IMG/VR virus record: IMGVR_UViG_3300048672_000512
Span: 1 to 64,000 of that record
Length of the DNA stretch: 64,000 bases
Reading direction: 5' to 3' (one strand)
DNA from: a virus
Within the stretch, counting starts at the first letter, position 1, and every line of letters begins with the position of its first letter. Under the pieces are notes generated by a model that was not told where the DNA came from, did no database searches, and saw nothing but the letters and a program-made list of their open reading frames with translations. The position numbers and the translations under genes were made by a program. Below, one piece after another: positions 25,631 to 39,905 of the stretch.

Positions 25631-28600
25631 ATGACATCAGACATCAATCTCAATCTGGAGCCGCAACAAGTTACCACTGACGTGCTTCTGGAGAAGTACG
25701 CAAAGAATAACGAGAAAACGGAAGATGATATCTTCCGTCGCGTTGCAAAAGGTCTAGCTGCAGTAGAAAAAACAAGCAAGCTGCGCAAGAAGTGGGAGAA
25801 AATCTTCTATGAAAACATGAAGCGCGGCGCTATCGGTGCTGGTCGCATCATGGCAGCTGCTGGTTCTGACGTTAAGGCTACGCTAGCTAACTGTTTTGTG
25901 GAACCTGTAGGAGACTGCATTCAAGGCTTTGATGAAGATGGTCTTCCTGGTATCTACACCGCTCTTACTGAAGCTGCAGAAACCATGCGGCGCGGTGGTG
26001 GTGTCGGCTACGACTTTTCTGCTATTCGTCCGAAGAATGCCTATGTGAACAGTACGCAGTCAATGGCCTCTGGTCCATGCTCGTACATGAATGTTTTTGA
26101 TACAAGCTGTCTCACAGTGGAAAGTGCTGGTTGCTTTGCAGCTGACACCCTCATCAATACAACTGACGGGCTGATTTCCGTCAAAGAGATAGTAGAAGAC
26201 GATACTAAGGACTACTTTGCTGTTACGCATTTAGGTCCGAAGCGTATTACCGCAAAATTCTATAATGGCATCAAAGAAGTCTGGAAAATAGAGACGGCAC
26301 TCGGTTTTGTAAACAAGCTAACCATCAATCACAAGATGGCTCGTTTTAACCGGGGAACCATCTGCGTTACGCCATTAAAGCAGATACTAAGCAATGACAA
26401 CAAGTCTATTCTGCTGTCAGTTCCTAGCGTAGGTGCCCTTGAACCTACCTGGTCCCGCGAAGAGCAAGAAGCTTATCTGATCGGTGCGTTCCAAGGTAAC
26501 GGCAGCTGGGTTTACTATACTGACGAGGACGGCTATCGTAACGTAAAGGGAATAAAAATTGCAAACAATACCACTAAAAGCTCAGTGGTAGATAAGCTGC
26601 TTTCGTGTGCTCATAGCCTGGGGCTGAAAGCCAGAAGTAAAAAAGTCACAGGCGAAAACACTTTAGTAGTGTCAATATATGACACTGCGTACTTTAACGG
26701 AGAGTGGTACGACCGGGGTGTTAACAAGGGCGCTGACATGGCGGTACCAGACTTCATAATGGGGTCATCGTTAAATGTACGGGCAGCCTACGTTGCTGGC
26801 TACATGGAGGCCGACGGCTACCTAGACGAAACAAAGAGCTACGTAAAAGCCACGTCTGTTACCAAAGAACTGTTAATTGGCATTCAGAAAATTCTAGCCA
26901 GTCTGGGCGTAGTTTCTAAGCTAGCTGTTGACAGAAAAGCAGAAAAAACCTGGAAAGCACTGTGGAGGCTATGCGTACTCGGTCCGGTTCCGCAAACACG
27001 TTATAACGAAACTGTCGGTGCCTTCTCAATAAATAGGCTACAAAACTTGTCATCCCGAGACCGCAGCGGTATTGGACACCCGGCTACGGACGTACTAGCC
27101 TTTGGCTACAGTAAGTCGAGGTTCTCTAAGTTCTGGTCTGGAGACATTTCACGCTATCCTAGGATTTCGTTTAACGCAATTATAAACAGTGACTGTGCTC
27201 CAGAACTAACGCAAACAATAACCGATGAGATTGTTTGCTGCGAATTGCTAGGCAAGCAACCAACATTTGACTTAGAAGTTGAGGACGTGCACCTTCTCAG
27301 TGCCGACGGGATCTACTCCTCAAATTCGAGGCGCGGCGCACAGATGGGTGTTTTGAAGATTGAGCACCCTGACGTTGAAGAGTTCATCGAAGCTAAACGC
27401 ACCGAAGGCCGCTGGCGCAACTTCAATGTTTCTGTAGGAGTTTCCGACGCGTTCATGCAGGCCGTAAGCACTGACGCTGACTGGCAGCTGGTTCACAAGG
27501 CTAAGCCCTGCGATCGTCTGATTTCAGAAGGAGCTTTTCAGCGTACGGATGGGGTGTGGGTTTACCGAACGGTAAAGGCTATTGATCTTTGGAACAAGAT
27601 CATGAAGTCGGCTTACGACTATGCAGAGCCGGGTATTCTTTTCCTGTCTGTTATCAATAACGATAACAATCTTCGTTACGTTGAGACTATCAGCGCTACT
27701 AATCCGTGCGTTACAGCAAACACTCGGTTGCATACTCAGTACGGAATGGTTCGCATCGGCGAGTTGTACGAAAACAAGTCCAAGCTTGAAGTTACGGTAG
27801 ACGCCCGCACGTTAGACTCAAAGCAGTTCTGCGGTACTGCAACGCGCCAGTCAACTAGTGCTTTTATGACTTCGCCGCGCGCAAAGGTTTGGACGATTAT
27901 CACTGAAGCGGGTTACGAGGTTACGGCTACCGAGTGGCATAAGTTCTATACGCAGCGCGGCAAGATTGAACTGAAGGACTTGGTGGTTGGTGACGAGCTT
28001 TTCATACAGTCAGGTCTTGGGCAGTTTGGCGTTGAAGGTTCGGAAGAGGCAGGCGCTGCCGCAGGAGCATACCACTCAGAGCTTACGGTGCCGGAGTTCG
28101 TTTGGAAGGGAACTCAAGAGTGCGTAAATGGCTTTCTTGCATCCTTGTTTTTAGACGACTACTTACTAAAGTGGAACCTTAGTGCTATGCGGTGCGGTAA
28201 CGTTAGCCGTAACACAGCAAAAGACATTCAGGTGCTACTAGCAAACCTCGGACACTTCAGCTACGTAAAAGAAAACACGGATGGCACCTGCTACGTTGAG
28301 GTTGATGGAACACCTGGACCGTCTAGAAGTGGCAAGTGGTCTTCTGCTATTACTAGTATTGAATACTCTGGAGAGGAAGCAGTATATGACGTAACTCAGC
28401 CTGATCACAACTCTGTAATCTTCAATGGGCTTGTGACTGGACAGTGCGGTGAGCAGCCATTACCGGCGTATGGATGCTGTGATCTTGGTCCGATCATTCT
28501 TCCAAAGTTTGTTCGCAATCCGTTCACTGAAGCGGCTTACTTTGACTTTTCTTCTTTTCAGGAGGCTGTTGCTATTCAATGTCGCATGCTTGACAATGTG

Positions 28601-30124
28601 CTTGATGCAACGCTGTGGCCGCTTGAACAGCAGAAGACTGAAGCAGCAAACAAGCGTCGTATCGGTATCGGGTTCACCGGACTTGGCAACGCACTAGCTA
28701 TGCTTGGAGTTCGCTATGACAGTGATCAGGGGCGTGAACTTGCAGAAAGCATAGCCTTTGATATGCGCAGTGCCGCATATCTAGCTTCTGTGGAACTAGC
28801 TAAAGAAAAGGGTGCGTTCCCACTGCTTGACGTTGACAAGTACCTTGAGGAAGGAACGTTTGCATCCCGGCTTCCTGAGAGCATCAAGGCAGCTATTCGA
28901 GAGCACGGCATTCGCAACTCGCATCTTCTTTCGATTGCTCCTACAGGAACAGTTAGTCTAGCCTTTGCAGACAACGCTAGTAACGGCATCGAGCCTCCAT
29001 TCTCGCTTGCATACAATCGCAAGAAGCGTCTAGCTGACGGCGGTCATGCAATGTATGCGGTTGTGGATCATGCTCTTCGCGTGTTTGTTTCTACTGAGTG
29101 CCCAGTTGAGTTACGCACGCCACTCATGGCTGCTATCTGCGGATACCAGACCTCGTTTGACGTGAACGGCAACACATATCAAGTAAAGGACGTTCTTCCG
29201 AAATCCTTTGTCACGGCGCTTGAAATGTCGGTTGATGACCACATCAAGATGATGGAAGTTATTCAGCCCTACATAGACACCTCGCTCTCAAAAACTGTCA
29301 ACGTTCCTGAGGACTATCCCTTTGAAGACTTCAAGGACATGTATCTTAAGGCATGGAATGCAGAACTGAAAGGCCTAGCCACATATCGTCCCAACTCTAT
29401 TCTTGGATCTGTTCTTTCTGTTGCGGCAGCACCTGTAAAGGAGACGTCGCAAGTAGCAGCACAAGATGACAACCCGCTTACCAAGGCTATTGACAAGCGA
29501 CCTCTTGGCAGAATTGAAGGCGTTACAGAACGTGTAAGCTACACAACGTCAGACGGTGACAAGTCTTTCTACCTTACTGTTAACTTTGCAAGGACGTCAG
29601 GAACAGTAAACGGCAACGAAGTAGCCATTGAACGACCTATCGAGTTCTTCCTTCCGTCTGACCAACTTGGAGAAGCGCAGCAGTGGATATCCTCCAATAT
29701 GCGTAACTTGTCGCTGATTGCGCGTGCTGGTGGCCCAATCGCTAAAGCACTAGCAAACATGCGAAAGGTTGGATGGGACAAGGGTCCAGTTCGATCCGGT
29801 TGGCTTGTAAAAGACGATGGGTCGCGTGTTCCGCGCTTCCATGACTCCGAGTGCGCAGTTGTAGGTTATGCGATTCAACAGATACTCATTGATCGTGGCT
29901 TTCTGACGTCGTCAGGATTGCAGGTTTCTGTTGAGAAGCTTGCCGAATCGTTGAACGGAAAGCAGGAAGTTGCTCAACCTGTTCTTGATAAAGCAACTGC
30001 GGCTACTCCTAGCATCATGACTGGCTCTGGAAAGAAGTGCCCGGACTGTGGTGCTCACGAGTTGCGCAGGGTTGACGGATGTCAGAAATGCATGAACTGT
30101 GGTTACTTAGGTTCGTGCGGTTAA
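25631..30124 (+). CDS. nrdJ: Vitamin B12-dependent (class II) ribonucleotide reductase with two inteins
   Basis: The precursor is 1497 residues. Removing both inteins (residues 168-565 and 693-938) leaves 853 residues, the usual NrdJ size. Extein landmarks are [38 protein letters not shown], the TNP/CGEQPLP active-site loop and [12 protein letters not shown]-terminal zinc ribbon (CPDCG, then [14 protein letters not shown]) is typical of adenosylcobalamin-dependent enzymes. The protein reduces ribonucleotides to deoxyribonucleotides in the cytoplasm and works without oxygen or a small subunit, but it needs host cobalamin. An HNH gene follows directly. The ACTGTGAATGCT motif lies 48 bases upstream. 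Confidence 0.95.
26132..27325 (+). other. Intein 1 in nrdJ, with LAGLIDADG endonuclease
   Basis: The intein begins at Cys168 ([20 protein letters not shown] is the N-terminal splicing block) and ends at Asn565 before extein Ser (YSSN/S). It interrupts [12 protein letters not shown]. Two DOD motifs are present, LIGAFQGNG (residues 283-291) and [10 protein letters not shown] (387-396), so the homing endonuclease appears complete. The penultimate residue is Ser rather than His, which is tolerated in some inteins. Confidence 0.9.
27707..28444 (+). other. Intein 2 in nrdJ, small, with unusual C-terminal Gly-Gln
   Basis: The intein begins at Cys693 and ends at Gln938 before extein Cys939, splitting the active-site loop TNP/CGEQ, a known intein site in this enzyme family. 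It is 246 residues. The splicing blocks are clear ([35 protein letters not shown]). The region near [18 protein letters not shown] looks like the remains of a LAGLIDADG domain without its acidic catalytic pattern. The usual His-Asn end is replaced by Gly-Gln. Confidence 0.85.
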
Positions 30125-33791: not shown

Positions 33792-36700
33792 ATGATTTCT
33801 AACTTTGTAACCGAAAACAGAACTATCACTGTTCCGTTGTTTCGGCAAAAGCCTCAATTCACGCCAGTTGCTGTTGCCGCTCGTAATGTGTCGCAACCAG
33901 CACGCGCTATTACTGCAGCTCCGGTGATCCGTCAGGTTTCCACTCTGTACCCTGACGCTAGGTTTGAGCTGGTTGAAAAGGACCGCAATAACGGTTTTCT
34001 ATACCTTTTCAACGGCAGGTACGAAGCGCAGAAAGCTATGTACCTTTTCCTTTCCATGGTTACGGCTGCTGCATATCCTACGCTAGAGCAGATTCCTATT
34101 GGCAAGAAGGTTCGTGGAAATAGCGCGCCTGTTAAGGAAATGACAAAGGGCGATCGTGAAACCATAAACAAGGTTCTGATCGAATCCTTCAAGCGTCGTG
34201 GTGCCGTGTCGTTGACCACGGTTAAAAAGCAGGCTTCCGAGTTTCGCGTTACGCTGCCGCTGTTTGCTTCAACTGGACTTAATCTTCCTGGTATTACAGC
34301 TCGGCTGTCCTCGCGCGCCGGCGTTACTAATGAAGAACTTGAGCAGTTCGGTACAGGCCGGGAATGGCCGCTAGCATCGCTTCCGGCTACGGGTGGTAAC
34401 TACAATGACAAGTTCAAAGCAGGTATCGCTTCAGCGAGTCCAGTTCTGAAGTTTGTAAAGCTCGGGGAACTCGATGCTTGGGTTTTGGAATTGACTATCA
34501 CAAAGGGTCAAGCTGAATTCCTGACCAATTCTTCTTGGGTTGAAATCCGCCCGATGGACTTGCATGGTCTGCTATACGAGTGGGGGTTGACATACTATGG
34601 CGATCTTATCAAGGCAACTCCTGACTACGCAATTCCGCTTCGTCAAATTGCAAAGTCGCTTGATGCTTCTCGTACAACGCCGCGCCTTAGTGAAGACGGG
34701 CTTCTTGTCACTGAGCGTGCTGAAATCCTTGCACTGCCACGCGAGCTTGACGCTGTTCGTACTTTTGAAGACCGCTATGCGTCTGCGTACACGCAGCCGA
34801 ATGGTGCCTTCGGTGCCTTGGATCTTGAAAATCCTACGGCTGCACCGCGTCGTCCGCCTAAGGCGATGCCGGTTCTTATCGACTGGGCCAACCTAAAATT
34901 TGCGTACACCACGCAAGATGGGCGTTTGCAGACGCGTTCTCTGGATCGTTCGCGCCCGGTTACCGTAACTCACATTGTTCGTTTTCTGGAACGCAGGGTA
35001 GGTAACGATTCTGTTCGCCATGTACTAGCTCAAACGGTGTCTGTAGGTTCCAAGTGGGGTTTTGAATACCTTGGTGAGATTCGCAGCATCACTGAACTTG
35101 AACGCGCAATTGAAATTGTCGGCAAGGCCGTTGATGAATATAAGGGCATTACTGAAATCCCTCTGTATGAAGTTGCGCGCTACGCGCTGACTCCGATGGC
35201 AGAGCTGCCGGAAAACCTGCATCAGTCTTTTGCCGGTACGCTTACATCTTTCTACGCTCTGTGCAAGGCTGTGCTTGAACGCATTGACGCAGAACCCGAA
35301 ACGGCCTATGCAGAGTACTCGGTTCCTACCATAATCGAACTGCGTGCTTTCCTTGTGATCTTTACGAAGTATGCAAAGGACATTCGCAAGCTTCGCACTC
35401 AGGACGAAGAGCTTCGTAAGCCATATCTGGAGCAGCCGCCTGAAACCATTCGCCCGGAGGATCTTGCAAAATACACAGATCCGAACATGCCGCTGGAAGC
35501 TGTTCCGTTCGCTAATGACTCTGGCAAGCAGCCTTGGGGTGCTTTGCCTCACCAAGCAAAGATTGCACATCTTACAGCATCAGCACCGCCTAACGTCATT
35601 CTTCCAGTCGCTACTGGTGGTGGCAAATCTTCGATCATCATCTACGATATCCTTCGTGAAATGGGTCGCGGTAGTAAAGGCCCGTTCCTGATTCTTTGCC
35701 CGTCGCATCTTGTTTCCAACTACGTGCGAGAGTTTGTCTACTTCACGAACTCTGAAGTGAACGTGATTCCGATCACCAACTACACAATCAACCGTCATGG
35801 CTATGAACGCCTGCAGACGATGATTGAAAAGGCTCCGGTTAACACGGTTCTGATTGCAGACTTCAACTCGATTCGCAACAAGGCTTCATCTATTGCGTAT
35901 GGTGTTGCGCCTACCAAGGTGTTTCCTGCTATCGAGTTTCTGCGTCAGTTCGCTCCGCAGTATGTAGCTATTGACGAGAGTCACTACCTGCGTAATCGGA
36001 ATGCGCGTCAAGATGCCGTTGCTCGCTTGGTGTCTGACATTCCTAAGATCCGCCTAGCTTCGGGTACGCTGGTTGCTAACGTGCTTCTTGATCTGGTTTC
36101 TCAGTTTGCTCTGATGGACCCGACACTGTTTGGCACGGAAGAGGATTTCATCAAGACCTATGCTGCTGGTTCTACCGGTAACAAGGTTATCTATCGAGAC
36201 GGTGCAGAGCAGGAAGTGAATTCGGCACTGCGCTCTTCGTGTCTGTTTGCAAAGGCGCAGAAGAAGGAATGGGCTGCTATCCTGCCATTCCCGTTGGAAC
36301 AGATTCACGGTGTTGAGCTTAGCAAGGCTCAGAAAGAGGTTTACCAGAAGATCTTTGAACAGTCGTTTATCGAAGCAATCAAGCAAGATTCTGCGCGTTT
36401 CGGTCTTCTTCTCAAGCGAGACGAAGATCTGACAGATCGTGAACGTGAAGAGCGTAACTCTCTGAACCTTGACGGTCTGATGTCGCAGTGTCTGCAGCGC
36501 ATTGAGTCGTTCCTGACTGCACCTGGCGAAGATGAAGGTGGCGCTCTTGAACTAAAGGGTGACGATCTTATTTCACCAAAGGTGCGCAAGATTGTTGACC
36601 TGTGCAAGACGCATCTGGAAAAGGAGATTCCGGGCAAGATTCTTATCTTCACCAACTACAACAAGTCAGCAGACGCAATTGACAAGGCTCTGAAGGCAGC

Positions 36701-39700
36701 TGGCCTTGGTGATATGTCCATCTACTACACGGCTACCGAAAAGGAGAAGTGTGGTGCGGACTTTGAGAACAACCCCAAGAAGAAGATCATGTTCGGGATT
36801 GAAAATTCCATGAACACTGGTTTGAATCTTCAGTACTGCTTCCCAGGTCACACTCAGATCATGACAAGTAAGAACACTGTCATGTCGCTGAAAGACGTGT
36901 TTGAGAATCCAAACGTCACAGAAGTTCTGTCCTATGACCTGAAGAATCGCAAGATTGAAATCAAGCCAATTCTTCGCAAGATTCGTACGCGTGTCAAGGA
37001 AGTAGACAAGTACGTCAAGATAGGCGTCGTTGACAACAAGACGGGTGAGCAGCGGTCTATGGTGGTAACTGCAAACCATAAGATTTTCATGAAGGGCGGT
37101 GGCAAGCTGCGTGCAGATGAACTTACAGAAGGTGATCAGCTTATAACCTTTGGTGGTAATTTTGAACGCATGCGTTCAAATCCAGACACTGATGAAATCC
37201 TTTCGTCTGCTGACTGGTTAGAAGTGCGCAATCGTGCAATTGCGTGCCCTGAGTGTGGAGAGTTCATCACACCTCAGAGCAAGATGAAACACCTAGCAGT
37301 TGAGCACGGTATTGGCGTTGCTGAGTATCAAGCACTGCTTGCAACAAAGAGCAAAAACAGCAAGCACAACTGGAGTAGCGATCGAGAGAAGATGCTCAGT
37401 GCCGTTCTGAAAGGTCATGCAGCGCAAACACACGAGCAGCGTTCAGAATACACGTCCAAGGCATGGGCTAATGACGACGGTACGCGACGTCAGCGCATGT
37501 CAGAGCTTGCTACTGCACGTTGGCAAGATGAGGATTACAAGGAAGCTACTGGCAACGCAATATCTGAAGCGCTGTTGAAGATACCTGAAGTTCTTTCTGA
37601 AAACTCAAAGCGTAATTGGGCACGTCCTGAGTACCGTGAGCGGCTGCTGGAAGTATTCTCTTCGGAGGAACACAAGCAGAAGTTGCGAAACTCTACTACT
37701 GAGCGTCATGAGAACGATGCCAGTTTCACGTTGAAGTGCTTGGTTGGAATGGCTGAAGGCCGCATGTCGGAACCGTCAAGCTATGAACAGAGGGTTATTG
37801 ACCTGCAGATTGACAACTTGAAGTTTGTTGGAACCTCGCATGCTCACTGCACTATCACTTTGGAGATTGACGGAAAGCGTGTTCTGAAGAACCCAGATTT
37901 CATATCTGAAAACCACCTGGATGAAGACGGTCAACCTTTGCGCGTTGTTGAAGTAGTTGGTGGTCGCAAGTGGACAAATCGCTTTGCAGAGCACGACAAG
38001 AAACTGATTGCAGCATACAAGAATGCTGGCATCAAGTGCTTGGTAATTGGAGAAGAGGACTTTGCAGACCTGGAAACAGTAGAGGCAAAGTTGCAGTCCT
38101 TTGTAAACAATCACTATCTAACGGTTCGTTGGGTTCGCAACTACACGAACACGAATGTGATTGGTGACTTCAAGTACGACATTGAAGTTGAAGGTAACCA
38201 CAATTACTTTGCTCTTGCTGGAAACGAGGATCTAGCACGTCAGAGTCGAAAGGGCATTCCTGTTCTGGTAAGCAACTGCAGTAGGCTGATTAGGTGTGAG
38301 ACAGTGTGGACCCCAGGTGTTCTTGAACAGGGTAACGCACGTATCGGACGCCCAAATCTGAAAGTTGAGGAATCACGTCCTTACGTCTACTACGACTGGG
38401 TTGTGGCTCTGGATACGCTTGACGTCACGAAGATCAGCTACCTGATTTCAAAGACTATCTCTGCAGCAAAGTTCTCTGAAGCCGGAAACGAACGCTTTGA
38501 TGACATTGAAGTTCCGCCGCTGTTTCCCATGACTCTGGAAAACATCCAGAACATGAATTCGTGGCAGGAGACTCTTCCTGAGTACATCAGTGCCTATCAA
38601 GCATATCAGAAAGCGACAGAAGCCGAGTACGCGGACTATCGTGAACGTGCAAAGGACTACCTGTTTGACGCTGACGGAAAGCGCCGAATGGCTAAGGTGT
38701 CGCGCGCTGCTAACCCTCCTGGTTCTGCTCTTATTCGTCGAGTTCCTTACCACCCGGGTACGGAGCTTTATGGTCAGGATCAACTTGGACTTGTTCGCTA
38801 CGACCAATTCCTGCGTCAGCAGGGCTTCAACGTAGCAGCTGAAGACGATGAATTTGCAGAGGATAGTGGAGCGGAAACTCCAAGTGCAGATGGTGGTTCT
38901 AAGGGGCGCCTGTCTCCTGAAAAGCGCGAACAGCTTCTCAGGGAGAACGCACTCGTAGGTGGCATGTGGGCGCATACGGAATTTGGTGATGGTCAGATTG
39001 AAAACCTTTCAGTGTCTACGATCAAGGTTCGCCTTGATAGCAGCGGTGAGCTGGTTTCGGTTGATCGCTTGAACTGCTTCCTGATCACTCGTGCTGAGAC
39101 GTCGTCAAAGGACATTCGTACTCAGGTTCTGAAGTTGCGTGGTCAAGTTCCGCTTGATGCACCAATTGAGGTTCTTGAGTCTCAGTTGACACCTGCAAAG
39201 ATGAAGATGCTTGAACGTGAGCGTCGCCAAGCAGACCAGGATGCGTATCAGCAACAGGAAGAGGAACAGGCAAGCACGGAATTTGAATTCCGCTTCAGCA
39301 TTGTCAACGACTGGCTATCGATCATCCTTGTCAACTCTGACAATGACACTGCAGTATCCGTTGTTCAGCAGAGCGGCTTCAAGTATTCACCCGAGTACTT
39401 CTATGCTGAAATGCGAACACCTAAGATGCTGTTTGATCAGTTCCAAGCGTGGTTTGATGCAGGCCTTGAAATTCCCGCAGACTACACTGACCACCTTACT
39501 GAAGTCTACAAGCGCTTCAAGTCGAATGGCAAGAAGGGCGTTACTTCGTTCATGGGCATTGCTAAGGAGCTGGAGATTCGCAACTTCTACAAGGTTGAAT
39601 TCAAGCCTGATGCTGATGCAAATACGATTCGACCCTTCCCGCTTATTCAGGACGATATCCTGTACATAGCTCTTCCTTCAAAGGGCCATCCCGGTTCCAA

Positions 39701-39905
39701 GAACGCTATGCGTCACAAGGTTCCTGGCGTGACGTGGTACAAGGAAGAAGAAGGAGCCGCGCTAGCTGCGTACACCAAGACGCGTAACAACGCAGTTACT
39801 TTCTTTGAACACATCGAAAGTCTTGGTTACACAATCTCTAACAAGGCGGATCTTATTGCAGAGCTTCGTACGCTGAAAACCATCCCTGCCAAGCCGTCCA
39901 AGTAA
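33792..39905 (+). CDS. Giant SNF2/superfamily 2 helicase-like protein with an intein
   Basis: The precursor is 2037 residues; after splicing out residues 1016-1495 it is 1557. Residues 1-575 are an unknown N-terminal region. The helicase core follows: Walker A VATGGGKSS near 606, DESHYLRN near 728 (motif II), ASGTLVAN (motif III), KILIFTNYNKSADAI and GLNLQY (motifs IV-V). After the intein comes LEQGNARIGRP, the motif VI arginine finger. The C-terminal 500 residues are unassigned and hold a Glu/Gln-rich helix (QQQEEEQASTEFEF). The helicase could remodel DNA during replication or transcription, or act in virion DNA ejection. It stands alone with a CATTTTT motif before it and a hairpin after it. 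Confidence 0.85.
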   Translation: MISNFVTENRTITVPLFRQKPQFTPVAVAARNVSQPARAITAAPVIRQVSTLYPDARFELVEKDRNNGFLYLFNGRYEAQKAMYLFLSMVTAAAYPTLEQIPIGKKVRGNSAPVKEMTKGDRETINKVLIESFKRRGAVSLTTVKKQASEFRVTLPLFASTGLNLPGITARLSSRAGVTNEELEQFGTGREWPLASLPATGGNYNDKFKAGIASASPVLKFVKLGELDAWVLELTITKGQAEFLTNSSWVEIRPMDLHGLLYEWGLTYYGDLIKATPDYAIPLRQIAKSLDASRTTPRLSEDGLLVTERAEILALPRELDAVRTFEDRYASAYTQPNGAFGALDLENPTAAPRRPPKAMPVLIDWANLKFAYTTQDGRLQTRSLDRSRPVTVTHIVRFLERRVGNDSVRHVLAQTVSVGSKWGFEYLGEIRSITELERAIEIVGKAVDEYKGITEIPLYEVARYALTPMAELPENLHQSFAGTLTSFYALCKAVLERIDAEPETAYAEYSVPTIIELRAFLVIFTKYAKDIRKLRTQDEELRKPYLEQPPETIRPEDLAKYTDPNMPLEAVPFANDSGKQPWGALPHQAKIAHLTASAPPNVILPVATGGGKSSIIIYDILREMGRGSKGPFLILCPSHLVSNYVREFVYFTNSEVNVIPITNYTINRHGYERLQTMIEKAPVNTVLIADFNSIRNKASSIAYGVAPTKVFPAIEFLRQFAPQYVAIDESHYLRNRNARQDAVARLVSDIPKIRLASGTLVANVLLDLVSQFALMDPTLFGTEEDFIKTYAAGSTGNKVIYRDGAEQEVNSALRSSCLFAKAQKKEWAAILPFPLEQIHGVELSKAQKEVYQKIFEQSFIEAIKQDSARFGLLLKRDEDLTDREREERNSLNLDGLMSQCLQRIESFLTAPGEDEGGALELKGDDLISPKVRKIVDLCKTHLEKEIPGKILIFTNYNKSADAIDKALKAAGLGDMSIYYTATEKEKCGADFENNPKKKIMFGIENSMNTGLNLQYCFPGHTQIMTSKNTVMSLKDVFENPNVTEVLSYDLKNRKIEIKPILRKIRTRVKEVDKYVKIGVVDNKTGEQRSMVVTANHKIFMKGGGKLRADELTEGDQLITFGGNFERMRSNPDTDEILSSADWLEVRNRAIACPECGEFITPQSKMKHLAVEHGIGVAEYQALLATKSKNSKHNWSSDREKMLSAVLKGHAAQTHEQRSEYTSKAWANDDGTRRQRMSELATARWQDEDYKEATGNAISEALLKIPEVLSENSKRNWARPEYRERLLEVFSSEEHKQKLRNSTTERHENDASFTLKCLVGMAEGRMSEPSSYEQRVIDLQIDNLKFVGTSHAHCTITLEIDGKRVLKNPDFISENHLDEDGQPLRVVEVVGGRKWTNRFAEHDKKLIAAYKNAGIKCLVIGEEDFADLETVEAKLQSFVNNHYLTVRWVRNYTNTNVIGDFKYDIEVEGNHNYFALAGNEDLARQSRKGIPVLVSNCSRLIRCETVWTPGVLEQGNARIGRPNLKVEESRPYVYYDWVVALDTLDVTKISYLISKTISAAKFSEAGNERFDDIEVPPLFPMTLENIQNMNSWQETLPEYISAYQAYQKATEAEYADYRERAKDYLFDADGKRRMAKVSRAANPPGSALIRRVPYHPGTELYGQDQLGLVRYDQFLRQQGFNVAAEDDEFAEDSGAETPSADGGSKGRLSPEKREQLLRENALVGGMWAHTEFGDGQIENLSVSTIKVRLDSSGELVSVDRLNCFLITRAETSSKDIRTQVLKLRGQVPLDAPIEVLESQLTPAKMKMLERERRQADQDAYQQQEEEQASTEFEFRFSIVNDWLSIILVNSDNDTAVSVVQQSGFKYSPEYFYAEMRTPKMLFDQFQAWFDAGLEIPADYTDHLTEVYKRFKSNGKKGVTSFMGIAKELEIRNFYKVEFKPDADANTIRPFPLIQDDILYIALPSKGHPGSKNAMRHKVPGVTWYKEEEGAALAAYTKTRNNAVTFFEHIESLGYTISNKADLIAELRTLKTIPAKPSK
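36837..38276 (+). other. Helicase intein with zinc finger, repeat linker and Vsr-like nuclease domain
   Basis: Residues 1016 (Cys) to 1495 (Asn) interrupt GLNLQY/CSRLIR. The splicing blocks are CFPGHTQIMTSKNTV, MVVTANHKIFM and NHNYFALAGNEDLA, ending in VLVSN before Cys. Between them lie three parts. First is a Ros/MucR-like finger (CPECG, then KHLAVEHG, from residue 1152). Next come helical repeats with Asn-Trp/Lys-Trp spacing like NUMOD DNA-binding modules. Last is a PD-(D/E)xK/Vsr-like fold with candidate residues Glu1332, Asp1369, Glu1387, His1401 and Asp1402. This is not a LAGLIDADG intein. Confidence 0.85.

Follow-up and report, generated by a model that had tools for sequence, protein, structure and literature searches.

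A contiguous phage helicase intein with a probable in-frame homing endonuclease of derived Vsr-like type

The window analysed here covers the opening 64 kb of an IMG/VR phage record of 178 kb and contains a helicase gene interrupted by what is probably a contiguous class-1 mobile intein with an in-frame homing endonuclease, built from a zinc-finger-like module, helical repeats and a derived Vsr-like (EDxHD-related) nuclease core. Large inteins are described as carriers of LAGLIDADG nucleases or, less often, HNH nucleases. Dassa reportedly described Vsr-like nucleases in 2009 in three settings: separate genes between the halves of split inteins, group I introns, and stand-alone inserts. A word search of the literature, incomplete in its coverage, returned no published Vsr-like nuclease within a contiguous intein.

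The helicase gene is a single uninterrupted frame of 2037 aa at 33792-39905 on the plus strand, and its product resembles phage SNF2-like helicases (PF00176, E = 3e-15; phrog_21391, E = 1e-93; phrog_62 also matched). Alignment with the intein-less helicases of Achromobacter phage Motura, Burkholderia phage BcepSauron and Vibrio phage GR7B, in which the gap closes cleanly with no insert at the intein site, places a 480-residue insertion between NTGLNLQY of motif V and CSRLIR...LEQGNARIGRP of motif VI. The N-extein (33792-36836, +) contains the SNF2-like helicase up to motif V, the intein (36837-38276, +; Cys1 to Asn480) corresponds exactly to residues 1016-1495, opening with Cys and ending in ...VLVSN before the next Cys, and the C-extein (38277-39905, +) continues the same ORF from motif VI onward with Cys+1 as its first residue. 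In an IMG/VR helicase scan that gave 43 loci, the majority of helicases readable at the motif run continuously through the site with no insert. Boundaries, intein models and intein-less homologues together match exactly one class-1 intein, bearing out the first-pass annotation of this stretch as a helicase intein. The fractured-gene layout, in which an independent nuclease ORF separates two half-genes, was not found here or in the related inteins L009 and L052, each of which also lies in one continuous ORF.

Both ends of the intein match the Pfam model Intein_splicing above its cut-off (E = 6e-10); TIGR01443 also matches, as does TIGR01445 below its cut-off, and the predicted ends adopt a Hint fold (VIA-align Z 10.7, 79 residues, rmsd 1.7). 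The N-terminal splicing domain (36837-37154, +; approximately intein residues 1-106) carries Cys1 and a TxxH motif (T78, H81) and matches NrdJ-1, while the C-terminal domain (38085-38276, +), matched by TIGR01443, extends from AKLQSFVNNHYL to LVSN; both are kept in four inteins. Cys1, TxxH, the terminal Asn, a Cys nucleophile at +1 and the Hint fold are thus all present, as in class-1 inteins. The His that precedes the terminal Asn in most, not all, class-1 inteins is Ser479 in the window intein and His in all three of its relatives.

These three relatives come from IMG/VR, and all are in the helicases of other phages. L009, a 520-aa intein in a 238-kb phage, occupies the same site and matches the window intein in its domain order, with the finger first, then the W-x-D-x-x-Y repeats and then the nuclease core. 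L052, a 397-aa intein in a 191-kb phage found by an intein-alignment scan, has no finger. L049, a related 246-aa intein in a 192-kb phage, retains the ARLESFINNHYL tail and a remnant of the finger, but its repeats and nuclease are gone. Single-protein pattern scans of viral contigs, tblastn of phage records with the insert as query and two genome-contig scans returned no relative, an absence that is no proof because diverged copies are missed by such scans. Three candidates were set aside as matches by chance: L007, a peptide match, and L068 and L069, which came from a junction-pattern scan. Targaryen gp46 was rejected because no nuclease features were seen in its sequence. The L049 helicase also contains a second, unrelated 320-aa intein at motif II (L049:5038-5997; LDESH|CFLAG...VHN|S).

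Between the splicing domains of the window intein lies the motif C1152-x2-C1155-x11-H1167-x4-H1172 (37245-37307, +), which is kept in L009 and is plausibly a C2H2-like zinc site. The CxxC/HxxxxH finger of the first-pass annotation is therefore present, and its description as Ros-type was not upheld: the intein's own finger gives weak, mixed C2H2 and zinc-ribbon matches with no ROS_MUCR, and the one ROS_MUCR match found is in a free-standing relative, L070, below the cut-off (E = 0.0046). Helical repeats of DNA-binding type follow at 37359-37766 (+), as W-x-D-x-x-Y units that form helices in a low-confidence model. The relatives' repeats match MobD, other homing nucleases and phrog_22215, which supports the earlier reading of this region as helical repeats and likens them to those of phage homing nucleases.

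The remaining domain, at 37764-38111 (+), is the putative nuclease core. Neither LAGLIDADG nor HNH models from Pfam, PHROGs or NCBIfam match the insert, in agreement with the earlier statement that it is not LAGLIDADG, and no other named nuclease family in these collections matches it. The insert was for this reason doubtful at first, a doubt resolved because relatives were found. A profile of the three intein cores, run against about 39 phage records, gave one strong match outside inteins (G035, E = 2.3e-13) and a weak second one in LR745208, both free-standing proteins with zinc fingers, DUF7487 repeats and a C-terminal nuclease, and a further scan found additional proteins of this type in IMG/VR. 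In 12 of 12 such loci the ORF stops at or shortly past the nuclease, so that none lies within an intein. In a comparison of the LR745208 nuclease against every PDB sequence, the only matches were the two E. coli Vsr entries (E = 0.06). With hhalign, the intein cores align to nine free-standing cores at 99.2%, and the joint profile of both sets aligns to E. coli Vsr at 89.6%, in register, with none of 100 shuffled Vsr controls near that score; the alignment pairs PDF (D51), GCFWH and LIVWE, and the relatives carry the Vsr landmarks PDF, GDFWH and LVVWES. PDB profile searches with three alignments (A7, A8 and A10) gave noise and did not return Vsr, so the Vsr link, which runs through the free-standing relatives, is good rather than overwhelming. 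The structure models are of low confidence (pLDDT 56 for the whole intein, 47 for the core) and too poor to decide the fold of the nuclease; with the whole model, Foldseek placed I-Bth0305I (3r3p) weakly at rank 49 (E = 1.2), behind inteins and a few unrelated chains, and Foldseek and VIA matches of the core model were noise.

Proteins ending in a Vsr-like nuclease core were seen at L074, L070 and L084-L095. The Pfam family DUF7487, of function not known, matches the repeats of both representatives scanned (L074 and L070), suggesting that DUF7487 repeats probably serve homing-type nucleases in binding DNA.

The five residues proposed from the first reading of the core, E1332, D1369, E1387, H1401 and D1402, are as numbered and are conserved among homologues. 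E1332, D1369 and E1387 are invariant in 12 of 12 homologues, H1401 occurs in 11 (the exception, L052, has Tyr), and position 1402 holds Asp in each of the three inteins with a nuclease and Glu or His in the other homologues; with this conservation the string is more than a chance match. E1332 and D1369 correspond to the acidic residues E25 and D51 of Vsr. The intein clade (window, L009 and L052) has lost the GDFWH block, the His of which aligns with Vsr H69, and H1401-D1402 are out of register with the Vsr catalytic His. Since this His is gone, we term the inteins a derived Vsr-like clade and not EDxHD enzymes; of the original proposal of a Vsr-like (EDxHD) nuclease, the Vsr-like core stands by homology, and the EDxHD assignment is withheld. 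Catalysis by a nuclease missing the GDFWH His is a candidate activity, and unproven. A canonical PD-(D/E)xK site, also proposed earlier, is unsupported because the Lys position is Val1389 (E1387-V1388-V1389).

The sites and identities of the related inteins bear on their mobility. The window and L009 inteins share the junction LNLQ(Y/F)-intein-CSRLIR, the L052 intein lies one codon upstream of the window site (HNLQ-intein-CASRIIR) and the L049 intein six codons downstream (SRLVR-intein-CETVW), using a Cys also present in the intein-less L008 and L010 (RLIRCETVW). Related inteins are thus at three different codons of one motif. L009 and L052 share 34.8% identity in the helicase motor core, against 58.1% in the splicing domains and 63.4% in the nuclease, and for the window and L052 the values are 32.8%, 47.5% and 41.5%; the window and L009 are about equally diverged in their inteins (51%) and hosts (49%). 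L008 and L010, the helicases closest to that of the window among those compared (53.4% and 52.4% over the motor core), have no intein. The contrast in L009 and L052 between inteins 58-63% identical and helicase cores about 35% identical argues that the intein moved between phages, although part of this pattern could also arise if the intein changes more slowly than the helicase. Judged by sequence, the identity pattern and sporadic presence are those of a mobile element and not of vertical descent alone, with sporadic presence, intein-less alleles and between-host transfer all found. The relatives indicate an intein that spreads, decays and settles at slightly shifted sites.

In the reading we prefer, the intein would excise itself from the helicase after translation, and its nuclease would bind and cut intein-less helicase genes near the motif V-VI codons; repair off the intein-bearing copy would then insert the intein, completing homing. 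Against this reading are the missing GDFWH His, the lack of H1401 in L052, Ser479, the absence of a direct family match and the low-confidence core model. We also entertain, tentatively and at somewhat less than even weight, a broader proposal: that a contiguous phage-intein clade absorbed a Vsr-like nuclease in frame and may represent a missing step between homing inteins and fractured genes, that its target could be loose enough to allow three codons within eight of one helicase motif, and that its active site may function without the usual His.

A serious alternative, if an unlikely one, is that the nuclease of the window copy is dead or dying, and that the intein splices and no longer homes, having entered the stage of decay in its homing cycle. 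Deletion of the GDFWH block throughout the intein clade would fit such decay, as would the change of H1401 to Tyr and loss of the finger in L052, the entire loss of the nuclease in L049, and the Ser for the penultimate His in the window intein itself. However, neutral decay over approximately 50% divergence would be expected to erase E1332, D1369 and E1387, which are invariant, and H1401, which is kept in both the window and L009. Loss of GDFWH need not inactivate, because it is common to all three nuclease-bearing inteins, two of which have moved between distant hosts. It is highly improbable that the insert is instead a module for DNA binding or regulation through which helicase splicing is controlled: the finger and repeats alone would bind DNA and a direct nuclease family match is absent, but the acidic residues are invariant in a Vsr-like frame across 12 proteins, and the sporadic, transferred distribution suits a homing element. 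About as improbable is a PD-(D/E)xK nuclease from another branch, such as a TnsA-like one, for which the PD...E order might speak, as might the split inteins of Proteus phage PM2 and LR745208, whose halves have TnsA-like nucleases between them, since hhalign to both TnsA-like proteins gives 0.1-0.2% (noise, on which a TnsA-like origin was rejected) versus 89.6% for Vsr, the ExK position has no Lys, and the landmarks of the relatives are those of Vsr.

Several other inteins and split-intein loci were observed in passing. The window contains a ribonucleotide reductase (NrdA-type) ORF at 25631-30124 with, by eye, two apparent inteins, one with LAGLIDADG-like motifs and the other small and ending in Gln instead of Asn. 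The phage as a whole is intein-rich, with 12 Intein_splicing matches in 178 kb; its intein-bearing loci (L096 and L097; G000:C1:94218-97688(-), 101386-105090(-), 167841-171746(+), 171698-173917(+) and 174464-177271(+), by Intein_splicing) include portal-like, terminase-like and topoisomerase/gyrase-like genes whose inserts look LAGLIDADG-like or HNH-like by eye. At G000:C1:167841-173917 (L097), a gyrase-B-like gene is apparently broken within its intein into two overlapping ORFs, the first stopping after an HNH-like part and the second starting with the intein C-terminal part; this is likely a natural split intein, or else a frameshift. In the uncultured 485-kb phage LR745208 (L005 and L070), an apparent split intein lies between two nuclease ORFs, one TnsA-like and one DUF7487/Vsr-like. 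In Proteus phage PM2 (L064:1814-4546), a split intein fractures a UvsW-like helicase gene, and its halves flank a separate nuclease ORF that resembles TnsA weakly (PF08722, E = 3e-4) and is not Vsr-like.

Six homing families are recognized, among them the EDxHD enzymes found in phages, of which I-Bth0305I is an example (PMC3943268). In 2025, phage group II introns were reported to contain a distant EDxHD/Vsr group that has CapR-like repeats (PMC12350094), and VSR-type nucleases have been reported in introns of Bastillevirinae (PMC11878797) and of mirusviruses (PMC12768974); the intein section of a paper on Thermosynechococcus names a DUF559/EDxHD gene, with no detail (PMC9403480). If an in-frame Vsr-like nuclease has relatives that are intact, shrunken and nuclease-less, both the origin of fractured genes and the entry of nucleases into inteins and their exit would become directly testable. 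The site shifts bear on the movement of inteins to neighbouring codons, and active members, if any, would add a new kind of modular DNA-cutting enzyme.

By sequence the nearest solved splicing domain is that of the NrdJ-1 split intein (PDB, E = 2e-5), which has no fused nuclease, whereas the window intein is contiguous and has a nuclease domain. Large LAGLIDADG and HNH inteins, both of which the window phage seems to carry in other genes, share with it an in-frame nuclease between splicing blocks and the logic of homing, but their nuclease folds are unrelated. The EDxHD/Vsr-like homing endonucleases, such as I-Bth0305I and the fractured-gene nucleases of Dassa, have in common with it a Vsr-related core behind a modular DNA-binding region and an occurrence in phages. 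They differ in being encoded in group I introns, free-standing or, reportedly, between split-intein halves, while the window nuclease lies inside a contiguous intein and is missing the His of the GDFWH block. Closest in the nuclease itself are the proteins with DUF7487/CapR-like repeats (L074 and L070), which apparently resemble the group II intron nucleases of PMC12350094; like the window intein they have a homologous nuclease core with zinc fingers ahead of it, but they are free-standing ORFs with different repeats and an intact GDFWH block.
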